Source of the DNA: an uncultured Alphaproteobacteria bacterium
GTDB taxonomy: Bacteria > Pseudomonadota > Alphaproteobacteria > Micropepsales > Micropepsaceae
Length of the DNA stretch: 64,000 nt
Reading direction: 5' to 3'
NCBI GenBank assembly: GCA_903862715.1
Contig: CAIOYY010000063.1
Coordinates: 1-64,000 of the forward strand
Positions 10,265-15,348 of this stretch are shown here, piece after piece. The notes beneath the pieces were generated by a model. That model ran no database searches and had not been told where the DNA came from. It was given only the letters and a program-made list of their open reading frames with translations. How positions within the stretch are numbered: the first letter of the stretch is position 1; every line of letters begins with the position of its first letter. The translations under genes were made by a program, and so were the position numbers.

Positions 10265-11947
10265 ATGGCCGCTAACGTCGATTTAATGGCGACAGGCGAT
10301 GCAACTGCGTCGCAATTGATCCGTTTCCTCGGCCGTGAATCCGGAAGCCTGAAATATCGGATCGCCATTTCTTCCACGGTTTCCGGTTTAAGTCGCGGAC
10401 TGTTGCTGGCGACCTTTAATGCCGCCGCCATTGTCGCGGCGCGCGGTGAATTTGATTTCTGGCTGGTCGGGGCATTTGTCGCAGCGCTGATCGTGCATCT
10501 CATCACGAAATATGATTCTGCCTATCAGGGCGAGCGCATGATGCGCCGAATGGTCCAGAATTTGCGTCTGGAGCTGTGTGAGAAATTGCTGTTCTCGCAA
10601 TTGCGTTTTGTCGAACGCAAAGGCGCCGCGGCGGTTTACGCTCATATCAGCACGGATATTTCGCAGCTCGGGCGGTCCGCTGTCACTCTGGTGCGAAACA
10701 TCGAGGCCTTCATCGTTCTTATATTTGCCCTCATCTATCTTGGTTGGTTGTCGCCGCCCGGATTGCTGGCGGCGGTCATCACCCTGACACTAAGCGCCAT
10801 TGTGTATCGTGTGCAGGACGGCAAGGCAGAACAATTGCTGCGGCTTTCTCGAGTCAAAGAGGACGAATTCTTCAAGGGTGTCTACGATCTGGTTCAGGGC
10901 TTTAAGGAATTGAAGCTCAATCGTGCCCAGCATGTCAGCCTCGCCGATCACCTCAGCACTGTGTCTAGCGAGTATCGCCGCCTTAGCGTTGCCGGAACCG
11001 CACGTCATCAAACAAGCCTCGTAACATCGCAGGCCTTTCTCTTTGGCCTTGTAGCAATTCTCGTCTTCATCCTGCCGCCATTGTTTCCGAGCGCTTCGGC
11101 CAGCGTGTTCCAGTTTCTCGCAACAGTGTTGTTCATCATCGGACCGGTGGAACAGTTGATTTCTTCGGCCGATCCCGTGACCCGTGCGCGCATCGCGCTT
11201 GGGGCGATCAACGACCTTGAAAAAGATCTCAACACCGGTCTCGCCAATCCCGAAGGCCGCGAACAGGCCGTGCTGCCGTTCCGCTTCGATACGATCGAGT
11301 TTCGCGACGTGCACTACGCGTTCGAGAACGCCGACGAGGAGGAGACATTCGGCCTCGGCCCGATCAATCTTCATCTGAAACGCGGGGAAGTGCTTTTCGT
11401 GCGGGGCGGCAATGGCGCCGGTAAGACGACGCTGCTGAAGCTTCTCGCCGGTCTCTATTACCCTTCCGCAGGGTCGGTGCTGGTCGATGGTCATGTTATC
11501 GGCGCGGGAGACCGGCAGCGCTACCGCGAAATGTTCACGGCGGTATTCAGCGATTTCTATCTCTTTCAAAAGCTTTACGGCATGGAAGATCCTGATCCCG
11601 TTTATGTCGATGCCCTTCTCGATGAATTGCAGATTCGCCATAAAACGCGGCTTGAAGGTGATCGCTTCTCCACTGTCAGCCTTTCCAGCGGCCAGCGTAA
11701 GCGTCTCGCCTATGCCGTCAGCCGTCTCAGCGACCGCCAGATTTATGTCTTTGATGAATTTGCCGCCGATCAGGATCCGGCTTTCCGCCGCTATTTCTAT
11801 GTGGCCATTCTTCCCGAGTTGAAGCGGCAAGGGAAAACCGTGGTGGCGGTAACGCATGATGACCGCTGGTTCACGGCCGGCGACCGGCTGATCAAGCTCG
11901 ATTACGGCAGGATTGCCGAAGAGACGTTAACGCCCGAAAGCGTATAG
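10265..11947 (+). CDS. Cyclic-peptide-type ABC exporter (SyrD/PvdE family), fused TM-ATPase
   Basis: A single-chain half transporter of about 560 residues. The N-terminal half has about six membrane segments. The C-terminal ATPase has Walker A GGNGAGKTTLLKLL, signature LSSGQRKRLAYA, Walker B IYVFDEFAADQDP and an H-loop VAVTHDD. The FDEFAADQDP variant and overall layout match exporters of cyclic peptides or siderophore precursors (SyrD, PvdE, YojI). It would export a peptide or small metabolite from the cytoplasm. No NRPS, RiPP precursor or siderophore gene is adjacent, so the cargo is unknown. The track start is TTG 10253; I prefer ATG 10265, four codons in. Confidence 0.8.
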   Translation: MAANVDLMATGDATASQLIRFLGRESGSLKYRIAISSTVSGLSRGLLLATFNAAAIVAARGEFDFWLVGAFVAALIVHLITKYDSAYQGERMMRRMVQNLRLELCEKLLFSQLRFVERKGAAAVYAHISTDISQLGRSAVTLVRNIEAFIVLIFALIYLGWLSPPGLLAAVITLTLSAIVYRVQDGKAEQLLRLSRVKEDEFFKGVYDLVQGFKELKLNRAQHVSLADHLSTVSSEYRRLSVAGTARHQTSLVTSQAFLFGLVAILVFILPPLFPSASASVFQFLATVLFIIGPVEQLISSADPVTRARIALGAINDLEKDLNTGLANPEGREQAVLPFRFDTIEFRDVHYAFENADEEETFGLGPINLHLKRGEVLFVRGGNGAGKTTLLKLLAGLYYPSAGSVLVDGHVIGAGDRQRYREMFTAVFSDFYLFQKLYGMEDPDPVYVDALLDELQIRHKTRLEGDRFSTVSLSSGQRKRLAYAVSRLSDRQIYVFDEFAADQDPAFRRYFYVAILPELKRQGKTVVAVTHDDRWFTAGDRLIKLDYGRIAEETLTPESV

Positions 11948-12145
11948 GCAGCGCGTCATCCGCTGGGACATGCCAAGCCACGGATTATGCTGACCTATTT
12001 GATTTGGTTTAAATTGTATTAGGTTTACTGTCCGGCTTCCGTTTAAGCATTCTTTGACGGAATTGCTCCATAGTCGCCTCCATAGCGGGTCCATTTCACG
12101 TGACCCGGCTCCCCTTTGTCGGGGATTACGACAGGCGAACGGAAC

Positions 12146-13312
12146 ATGACACGGCCGAGTTTGACCCCCAGCGTGATCGTACTGGCATTCGCGCTTTCGG
12201 CCTGTGCAAGCACTGCCGCTGTGTCGCCGACGCCTCCACCCGCCAATGAATTTGCCGGAACGATTGCGGAAGATATCGAAGGCGCCGTTCACATGGCGCA
12301 AATGCAGCGCGCCGCCGGAAATCTGGACGGCGCAACGATAACGCTGGGTCAGCTGGTACTGGTCGCGCCGAACAATCCGCGCGTGCTGGGTGAGTATGGT
12401 AAAACCCTCGTGGATAAGGGCGAGTTCGCGGATGCGCTCGCGTTTCTCCAGCGCGCTATAGAACTCGATCCTAGCGAATGGTCCTATTTATCTGCGCAGG
12501 GCGTCGCTTACGCACAGCGCGGCGAATACGACCTGGCGCAAACGGCCTTTGCGCGCGCATTGGCGCTGCATCCGAATGAGCCTGCCATATTGAACAATCT
12601 GGCGCTGACGCATCTCCAGGCGGGCAATCTGGATGAGGCCGAAACGCTGCTGAATCAGGCTGCCGCAAATGGCATGGCCTATCCCAAGATTGCGCAAAAT
12701 CTCGCGCTGGTGCGGCAGTTGAAGGCGTCGGGCGGAACGCGCGTGCCCGTGCCGAGCCCCACCTCTGAAGTGCAGGTACCGGAGACTGTCGCCGAGATCG
12801 CGGTTCCCGAAATGATCGAGGTTGCCTCGGTTGCGCCGCTTTCGCCGCCGTCTGTTGTTCAGGCGGCCCTGCCGGAAGTACCGGTTGCAACGGCCCCGCA
12901 GCAAAGTCCGCCTATGGTTGTCTCCGCCCCGGTACGCTCATCGCTGACGATCCCGTCGTCGGGTCCGATCTATCTCCAGGTCGGCGCATTCGCTTCGGAA
13001 GAAAACGCCGCACGTGTGTCGGACAACCTGGCGGATTTGAATCCGCATACAGTTCCCACTCTTACCGGCGAACGCGTTCTTCACCGTGTCAGCGTCGGTC
13101 CCTTCGCCAATGACGACGAAGCCCGCAGCGCGCTGGACGTGCTGCATGTGCGCGGCCTGCATGATGTGCAAATTATGACCCGTCTGCCGGAAGCCGTGTC
13201 CACCGCCGAAGCAGCGGAAGCTGTTCCGGTGCTAAAGCTTGAACCGGAACTGCCGCAATCCCCGGAGGCACCGGAATCGCCGCCGGATCTGCGCTTTTCC
13301 GAAAAACTCTGA
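12146..13312 (+). CDS. TPR lipoprotein with C-terminal SPOR domain (TadD-like TPR region)
   Basis: About 388 residues. The N-terminus is a lipoprotein signal (VIVLAFALSACAST, with Cys as the lipid site). TPR repeats follow at about residues 45-190, reading like TadD (LDPSEWSYLSAQGVAYAQRG, AILNNLALTHLQ, AQNLALVRQL). A Pro/Val-rich linker (about 200-275) leads to a SPOR domain (YLQVGAFASEENA...HRVSVGPFANDDEA) that binds denuded peptidoglycan. It is therefore likely an envelope protein anchored in a membrane and contacting the septal wall. No tad pilus genes are nearby, so a pilus role is not supported. ATG 12146 is chosen over TTG 12116 because it gives a clean signal peptide. It is convergent with the Sel1/TetR gene. 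Confidence 0.75.
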   Translation: MTRPSLTPSVIVLAFALSACASTAAVSPTPPPANEFAGTIAEDIEGAVHMAQMQRAAGNLDGATITLGQLVLVAPNNPRVLGEYGKTLVDKGEFADALAFLQRAIELDPSEWSYLSAQGVAYAQRGEYDLAQTAFARALALHPNEPAILNNLALTHLQAGNLDEAETLLNQAAANGMAYPKIAQNLALVRQLKASGGTRVPVPSPTSEVQVPETVAEIAVPEMIEVASVAPLSPPSVVQAALPEVPVATAPQQSPPMVVSAPVRSSLTIPSSGPIYLQVGAFASEENAARVSDNLADLNPHTVPTLTGERVLHRVSVGPFANDDEARSALDVLHVRGLHDVQIMTRLPEAVSTAEAAEAVPVLKLEPELPQSPEAPESPPDLRFSEKL

Positions 13313-13400: not shown

Positions 13401-15263
13401 TCAGGTCTTCTGTGATTCGAATACAGGCGGTTCGTTGACCACCGGATCAAGCGGCGCCGGTTCAAAAGATTCGACCTCGGCCTGAACCCGCTCGAATGCC
13501 GCACGATCCATTTTTGGCGCGAGAAACGCCGCACGGTTCAGCGCGTCTTCGTCTCCCTGCGTCGCCGCGATAGCATACCATTTATAGGCTTCGGCGATGT
13601 CCTGCGGTACGCCGTCGCCGCGCTCATACAGGACGGCAAGGTTGAACTGCGCGACCTGGTAGCCGAGAGCCGCTGCGAACTGAAACCAGTGCGCTGCCTC
13701 CGTGGTGTTCTGCTCGGTTCCGAGACCTTGCGCATAGAACATGGCGAGATTGTTCATTGCCATGCGGTTTCCCTGTTCAGCGGCGGCTTCATACCAATAT
13801 TTGGCGGTCGCAGGGTCGAACATCGCATGGTCTTCGCGCGAATAAAGCGTAGCCAGATTATATTGGGCAACGGCCTGGCCACCTTCGGCCGCCCGTTGTA
13901 GCCAACGTACCGCCTCGTCTTCATTGGCGGCGACCGCATCGCCGTTCAAGTAATGAAGGCCCAGCGCCGTTTGCGCTTTCGCATCACCGATCTCGGCAGC
14001 CGCCATCAATTGGTCGAAAGGCGTTATCGTTTCGAGCGGCGAGGGGACGGTGCCGAGGGCCACGACCGTTCCCGGAGATGCAACCGCAGGCACGGCATCC
14101 GAAGACGGCAGCTCGCCCGCATCCATCGTGCGCGCCAGCGCCACCAATCCGACCGCGAGAAGAGCGATGGGTGCGACGCGGGTTAAGAGAAGGCTTTTGC
14201 CGCCACGCTCAGACTTTCGGAACCATTTTCCCCAGCTGGAGGTGCCGCCCTTTGCGTCACGCTTTTCGGCATTTCTGGGTTCGGCCACCGCTTTCTTGGC
14301 TGCCTGCCTTGCGGCGGCAAGAATATCTTCGAGGCCGCGTTCTTGGCTATCTTCCCCGGGTATCCCAAGGATATCGTCGAAAGAGACGACATTCGACGGG
14401 GTGACGGGCGCATCGCGCATCCCCGGCACGGAATCGGCGTGGCTGGGGCCTGCGGGCGGCGTCGCCTCAAGGATGCGCAGACGATCAGCATTATGTTTCT
14501 TGGTCGCGTCGAAATCGCTCGCGATGTCCATCAGGCGCTTTTCCAGCATTTCCAGACGGCCGCCAACGGAAGCTAGGTCCTTCGTTGAGAAGGTAGCGGG
14601 ATCGATCGGTTTCGCCGCCGCTTTTTCCGCCTGTTCGGCGCGTTCGACAAGGCTACGCTCGATGACGTAGACGCGCCGTTCCAGGCGGGCGACCGCGGCG
14701 TTGATGCCGCCTTCGCCCTGCCCGTCGCGCGAGGCAATTTCCTTCACAAGGCCATCGATTTCGCGCGCGCCCTGTCGGCGGGGAACGCGCGGTACGTCAC
14801 GGTGCGGCATCATATTGCCGCTGGAATCCGTCATTGCGATCTCAGACTTGTCGTCTTCCACCGCGTCGTCGTCTTCAGCGTCTTCGCCGGTGGAATCGTT
14901 TTCCTCGTCCGCGCCGGCAGCGGCGCGAGCGATCATGAAGCTCTCGACCATTTTCGGCAGATCGAGAATGCCCATGGACGCGGCGGTTTTCGGATCGGTA
15001 TTTTCGGTGTCGCGTGCGGCGCGCGAGAGTGCGGACAACTCATCGGCGGCAATCGACAGAAGCAATTCATCACGATTGCAGAAATAGGCGTAAACGATGT
15101 CATGCGACATGCCCGACTCGCGAACAACCGCTTCGGGCGAAAGTCCTTCCGAGCCATCGCGGATCAGGACGCGACGGGCAGCTTCTAGAATGGCCCGTCT
15201 GGCCGGCCGCCGCCGCCGGACCGCTTCCGGACGTTCGCTGCTCTGCGCTTGTTCTTCCGCCAT
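13401..15263 (-). CDS. Chimeric TetR-type HTH / coiled coil / single TM / Sel1-repeat protein
   Basis: About 620 residues in an uncommon order. Residues 20-75 match a TetR N-terminal HTH (AILEAARRVLIRDGSEGLS, then SGMSHDIVYAYFCNRDELL). An acidic stretch (EDAEDDDAVEDDK) and a helical, coiled-coil-prone region (about 185-265) follow. A single hydrophobic span, LLLTRVAPIALLAVGLVALA, lies at about 359-379. At least four Sel1-like repeats then run from about 420 to 575 (AVRWLQRAAEGGQAVAQYNL, YWYEAAAEQGN, HWFQFAAALGY, KWYAIAATQGD). The positive-inside rule puts the HTH in the cytoplasm and the Sel1 repeats in the periplasm, similar in plan to PodJ but with a DNA-binding head. The ATG at 15263 has GGAAA upstream; ATG 15317 (18 residues longer) is possible. 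Confidence 0.75.
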   Translation of the reverse strand: MAEEQAQSSERPEAVRRRRPARRAILEAARRVLIRDGSEGLSPEAVVRESGMSHDIVYAYFCNRDELLLSIAADELSALSRAARDTENTDPKTAASMGILDLPKMVESFMIARAAAGADEENDSTGEDAEDDDAVEDDKSEIAMTDSSGNMMPHRDVPRVPRRQGAREIDGLVKEIASRDGQGEGGINAAVARLERRVYVIERSLVERAEQAEKAAAKPIDPATFSTKDLASVGGRLEMLEKRLMDIASDFDATKKHNADRLRILEATPPAGPSHADSVPGMRDAPVTPSNVVSFDDILGIPGEDSQERGLEDILAAARQAAKKAVAEPRNAEKRDAKGGTSSWGKWFRKSERGGKSLLLTRVAPIALLAVGLVALARTMDAGELPSSDAVPAVASPGTVVALGTVPSPLETITPFDQLMAAAEIGDAKAQTALGLHYLNGDAVAANEDEAVRWLQRAAEGGQAVAQYNLATLYSREDHAMFDPATAKYWYEAAAEQGNRMAMNNLAMFYAQGLGTEQNTTEAAHWFQFAAALGYQVAQFNLAVLYERGDGVPQDIAEAYKWYAIAATQGDEDALNRAAFLAPKMDRAAFERVQAEVESFEPAPLDPVVNEPPVFESQKT

Positions 15264-15348
15264 CACATGTTTCCGGGACGCTGAAAACGCCGTCCGCAAT
15301 GCCTGAGTTTCAAGCATTGTTGTATCCGGATTGGATTAAAGTTCTTGT

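Follow-up and report, generated by a model that had tools for sequence, protein, structure and literature searches.

Domain layout and predicted structure

A single gene on the minus strand of the 64,000-nucleotide stretch of Micropepsaceae DNA analysed here (the window) encodes a TetR-type DNA-binding head, an acidic linker, a coiled coil, one transmembrane (TM) helix and an array of Sel1 repeats (Table 1). The full open reading frame (ORF) extends over 13401..15317(-) and comprises 638 codons. The start at 15263 is likelier than the upstream ATG, because GGAAACATGTG stands before it and the head domain begins soon after it, as in the homologues.

Table 1. Features of the TetR-Sel1 gene in window coordinates, with residues numbered from the start codon at 15263.
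Feature	Coordinates	Strand	Description or basis
TetR-coil-TM-Sel1 gene	13401..15263	-	620 codons; 638 codons from the alternative ATG at 15317
TetR_N DNA-binding domain, residues 25-70	15054..15191	-	Pfam; AlphaFold helices; TetR matches in the PDB
Predicted recognition helix HDIVYAY, residues 54-60	15084..15104	-	AlphaFold helix; column composition
Acidic, mostly disordered linker, residues ~88-185	14709..15002	-	Charge; pLDDT
Coiled-coil segment, residues 184-267	14463..14714	-	Two long helices, pLDDT ~68-93
Juxtamembrane motif AARQAAKKA	14283..14318	-	Alignments; family consensus YLxxARRAAxxAA; also in PodJ-like paralogue L046
Single TM helix, residues 356-380	14124..14198	-	Hydropathy scan; AlphaFold helix; flank charges; predicted N-in/C-out
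Sel1 repeat array, residues 415-598, predicted periplasmic	13470..14021	-	Pfam; Foldseek

The Pfam model TetR_N matches the window protein at 33.0 bits (gathering cutoff 24), and at least four Sel1 repeats are matched at 112.3 bits (cutoff 30.7). The coil segment has a weak match to the coiled-coil model PF23991 that lies under its cutoff, and the linker carries a charge of -13 across residues 90-185, with pLDDT <50 at residues 119-163. In an AlphaFold2 model built from an alignment of 44 sequences, the head forms TetR-like helices at residues 12-36, 43-50, 54-60 and 64-87 (mean pLDDT 92-98 for residues 21 to about 80), and the Sel1 array is modelled at pLDDT 90-98. When the head is modelled alone, the PDB matches listed by Foldseek are solely TetR-family or unspecified regulators, with query-normalised TM-scores of up to 0.72. 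The E-values for this short chain are modest, the best being 0.0036. Sel1 proteins, LpnE (6deh) among them, are matched by the full model. Codon-position GC follows one coding pattern through the head, linker, coil, TM and Sel1 regions, and there is no frameshift signature. The first-pass annotation had described one ORF with a TetR helix-turn-helix, an acidic and coiled-coil linker, a single TM helix and four or more Sel1 repeats, and Pfam and AlphaFold2 bear out this description.

Residues K and R flanking the TM helix average 5.2 on the N side versus 2.1 on the C side among 46 homologues, and the N side has the surplus in 41 of these. Because of this surplus, and because there is no signal peptide ahead of the N-terminal head in the window protein, the head is predicted to be cytoplasmic and the Sel1 array periplasmic (N-in/C-out). 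The same membrane-anchored arrangement had been proposed earlier; it stands as a prediction, and it is kept in 46 genes.

Distribution of the fused family

There are 46 distinct ORFs in which a profile search finds a TetR head and Sel1 repeats with a TM helix between them, compared with 45 PodJ-like ORFs. The genomes searched were 61 relatives, 96 of the order (all from family f1, which is Micropepsaceae as judged by a named relative), 385 of the class and 399 of the phylum, along with named genome contigs. The search for this architecture in other genomes that the first-pass annotation had called for therefore finds it repeatedly, and the homologues are fused instead of being separate TetR and Sel1 proteins. 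Across the order, class and phylum samples, which consist of partly incomplete metagenome-assembled genomes (MAGs) and were searched with a profile that fusions made elsewhere from different partner sequences would escape, full-profile matches are confined to two genera of f1. There is no full-length match outside f1 in the class (385) and phylum (399) samples, where the TM/Sel1 part is matched alone or, in the longest matches, together with part of the coil. Likewise, no record among the plasmid relatives spans 80% of the protein, and the best of them match the TM/Sel1 part only.

The TetR_N model scores above its gathering cutoff in 8 of 10 homologues; the other two are cut by a contig end (G004) or head-less (G002). 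In a set of 44 proteins, 40 of them fused (set A2), TetR_N is found at E<=0.001 in 37. There is one member, in G063, whose head (L078:1109-1822) and coil-TM-Sel1 part (L078:1396-2778) lie in different frames, which represents either a real frameshift or a sequencing error.

Two probable parent genes and the likely origin of the fusion

The genome that contains the window also carries a gene for a PodJ-like paralogue of 888 residues (L046:6960-9626, contig C37). The coil-to-Sel1 part of the fused protein is homologous to this paralogue, with a common juxtamembrane motif and about 49% identity across the Sel1 region. No PodJ model in NCBIfam matched the paralogue, and its identity as PodJ is one of architecture, so we call it PodJ-like. 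An earlier remark that the overall shape of the window protein recalls PodJ has thus become a case of sequence homology, which covers the coil, the juxtamembrane region, the TM helix and the Sel1 part.

The nearest relative of the fused head is a stand-alone TetR protein in the same genome and on the same contig (L046:13300-13896). A hidden Markov model of the fused heads scores 76-88 bits on stand-alone TetRs that are linked to PodJ-like genes and at most 49 bits on the other TetRs examined. The PodJ-linked TetRs fall inside the group of fused heads in a moderately supported head tree whose root is arbitrary. In 40 genomes, some of them from genera that lack the fusion, a PodJ-like gene shares a contig with a stand-alone TetR gene of this kind at a distance of 6-28 kb, measured between the starts of the matches, and this pair is more widespread in f1 than the fused gene is. 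A tree built from 146 Sel1 modules groups the fused proteins with each other or with head-less members, apart from the PodJ-like proteins; they form two blocks whose relation to each other is not firmly supported.

There is an invariant GAATC (GANTC) about 20 nucleotides before the start of the linked TetR gene in all nine promoters examined. Promoters of the PodJ-like gene carry a CtrA-like box, CTAAC..TTAAC, near -150 in 10 of 10 cases and a GANTC at -8 in 8 of 10. The box in all ten and the GAATC in all nine suggest that the parental locus is under cell-cycle control. For the fused genes, control through GANTC or CtrA sites was considered and set aside, since such sites are not common to them. 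The window gene has one GANTC, at -147, which is unremarkable at 1.9 per kb. Only the fused gene in L213 (genome G088) has the parental GANTC element: upstream of position 10338 (-) it retains the stand-alone TetR promoter element GAATCATCTATGGTG at the same distance to the start. This 16-bp element scores 17.7 bits, where the background frequency is about 2e-4 per 100-mer, and is a single case.

Most likely, the gene arose by the fusion of two genes of one polarity locus. The 5' part of a PodJ-linked TetR gene would have been joined to a duplicated coil-TM-Sel1 part of a PodJ-like gene, probably before the two genera radiated or early in that process. In the simplest history the linked parents predate the fusion, which is the derived state; this direction is suggested by the taxonomic distribution and the one retained promoter, the root of the tree being unsupported.

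Such an origin bears on the parents as well. Gene fusion is a strong hint that the separate products act together, and it predicts an unrecognised link between a PodJ-like scaffold and a TetR protein in Micropepsaceae. The conserved linkage implies that, elsewhere in the family, the separate PodJ-like protein and the linked TetR share one pathway.

Conservation and loss of the head

The median dN/dS of the head is about 0.18 (range 0.05-0.75, ten close pairs), compared with about 0.19 for the Sel1 part, 0.15-0.19 for the free heads of the linked TetRs and about 0.28 for the looser middle region. These values indicate that the heads are under purifying selection. Position 64, the residue that contacts the DNA backbone in TetR proteins, is K or R in 95% of fused heads, and 73% of them have a basic residue at position 54. 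Tyr58 of the recognition helix is retained in only 47% and replaced by Arg in 34%. Most heads therefore look capable of binding DNA, either with altered specificity or, for some members of the family, perhaps in an altered role. The head in the sister species G006 is divergent and has a net charge of -6.

The head is gone in G002, in G095 and in the pair G103/G105, where the orthologue begins in or after the linker and keeps the coil, TM helix and Sel1 repeats. A tblastn search found no remnant of a head beside these orthologues. Head-less members nest among fused genes in the Sel1-module tree, and at least three lineages dropped the head. Since the head was lost and the rest retained within the fused clade, the scaffold part must, to judge from these losses, have a function that is independent of the head. 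These natural head-less orthologues are a ready control for separating scaffold functions from DNA functions.

Comparison with known systems

A survey of transmembrane transcription regulators (TTRs) reports 50,302 such proteins with more than 100 kinds of DNA-binding domain (PMC10269533). The first-pass annotation was right that TetR proteins are normally soluble, though TTRs as a class are common, as the survey makes plain; neither TetR nor TetR_N is named in its main text. In Alphaproteobacteria, HigX is presented as the first TTR to be characterised (PMC13384398). The window family resembles CadC, ToxR and HigX in having a DNA-binding domain and a TM anchor in one chain (PMC10269533, PMC13384398), and it further resembles CadC and ToxR in having one TM helix and an N-terminal, cytoplasmic DNA-binding domain. 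It differs in its TetR_N head, in its PodJ-type periplasmic Sel1 array and in the acidic linker and coil between them. The OmpR-type winged helix of the ToxR/CadC family is absent from the window protein, where TetR_N is the sole DNA-binding domain found.

Compared with PodJ, a polarity scaffold of Caulobacter (PMC9684454), the window protein has the same cytoplasmic coil, single TM helix and periplasmic repeat domain. However, it carries the TetR head where the paralogues have the PodJ-like N-terminal motif WNVxGIxxEAREAAR, and no C-terminal peptidoglycan-binding domain is matched by Pfam. It shares the N-terminal helix-turn-helix with TetR-family regulators, but their C-terminal ligand and dimerisation domain is replaced by the linker, coil, TM helix and Sel1 repeats, and there is no TetR_C match. 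SlmA and RefZ, which act in cell division (PMC3573117, PMC6657595), offer a parallel in which TetR proteins serve spatial control and not simple repression, although both are soluble, full TetR dimers without a TM helix or Sel1 repeats.

By the definition in the TTR survey (PMC10269533), a TTR binds DNA, controls transcription and has a predicted DNA-binding domain and at least one predicted TM region; the two predicted features are present here (the TM region at residues 356-380). By prediction, then, the family falls within the TTRs while lacking two PodJ features and one feature of TetR regulators, and it can be regarded as a TTR variant made from PodJ-family and TetR parts. In the open-access literature, TetR, Sel1 and PodJ occur together only in a visualisation of the Caulobacter pole, and the phrase 'membrane-bound TetR' returns nothing relevant. 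The family would consist of TetR-based transmembrane DNA-binding proteins whose evolutionary path is clear, with both parents still present and linked in the same genomes.

Possible functions of the fused protein

The reading that we prefer, and hold with middling confidence, is that of a DNA-binding protein tethered to the membrane on a PodJ-type scaffold, with an envelope partner or its position controlling the heads. TetR proteins dimerise through their C-terminal domain to bind DNA. Because that domain is absent here, the coiled coil is the likely dimeriser of the cytoplasmic heads. The TM helix would serve as the anchor, and the periplasmic Sel1 repeats would bind a partner in the envelope. 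Binding or release of this partner, or else position along the envelope, might then set whether the paired heads touch DNA. There is a precedent for periplasmic Sel1 proteins as signalling partners in ExoR, which acts on ExoS/ChvI (PMC7327166). Both DNA binding and envelope sensing would be activities of the fused protein, and the family may link the cell envelope to DNA. The three or more head-less lineages that kept everything else, and the Arg that so often replaces Tyr58, argue against a simple, obligatory sensor-to-DNA device. We consider rather doubtful the more specific proposal that a polarity scaffold gained its own DNA-binding head by the fusion of two genes of one cell-cycle-controlled locus, and so couples an envelope or pole position signal to specific chromosomal sites in one protein.

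Another possibility, tenable if somewhat unlikely, is that the head no longer binds DNA and has become a protein-interaction module on the PodJ-like scaffold. RodZ is similarly membrane-anchored, and its helix-turn-helix contacts MreB. Repeated loss of the head with retention of the rest would fit such a role, as would the Tyr58-to-Arg change in a third or so of the heads (34%) and the divergent, negatively charged head of G006. In addition, no operator-like motif common to the fused genes was seen upstream of them, either in alignments of close pairs or among inverted repeats in the window. However, the basic residues at positions 64 and 54 are widely kept, dN/dS of the heads is as low as in free TetRs, and TetR_N is still recognised in most homologues (8 of 10 above the gathering cutoff, and 37 proteins of set A2 at E<=0.001), all of which speaks for heads that bind DNA.

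The protein might instead be a DNA tether or landmark and not a gene regulator, in which the Sel1 repeats and coil occupy a particular place in the envelope and the head keeps chromosomal sites there, much as SlmA and RefZ do. We judge this to be distinctly unlikely, though the C-terminal part belongs to the PodJ family, the promoters of the linked PodJ-like and TetR genes (10/10 and 9/9, above) suggest cell-cycle control of the parental locus, and TetR proteins have a precedent in spatial control (PMC6657595). Against it, the fused genes have no common GANTC/CtrA pattern, with L213 as the sole carrier of the parental element. That an assembly or sequencing artefact joined two genes, a concern already raised in the first-pass annotation and natural for a single MAG contig, has next to no probability, as the 45 other fused genes, the continuous codon bias and the G006 orthologue in the same gene order rule out a frameshift or chimera.

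Gene neighbourhood

In the sister species G006 the orthologue keeps its place and orientation within a collinear block that spans some 30 kb. The TetR-Sel1 protein is 32% identical between the two, whereas most of its neighbours in the block are 55-80% identical, which indicates that it evolves fast. The adjoining tctCBA transport operon was considered as a regulated target and dropped as evidence, because gene order is kept with G006 over the whole of the ~30 kb regardless. The link to FTR1 and cupredoxin neighbours that exists in part of the sister genus was not found in the genus of the window.

The convergent neighbour at 12116-13312 (+) encodes a protein that has TPRs at its N terminus and a SPOR domain at its C terminus; it is 36% identical to its counterpart in G006 and thus also fast-evolving. 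Four genomes of the genus carry this neighbour together with the TetR-Sel1 gene or with an orthologue that is truncated or has no head. Another TetR protein, highly conserved and marked by the motif RKPESLAKLKRAARKLFVERGYHATRPQDIAREAGLGHGTFYLHYPDK, is repeatedly encoded within several kb of the TetR-Sel1 gene in the sister genus, and examples are found in L177, L178, L197, L208, L209, L213, L138, L144 and others.
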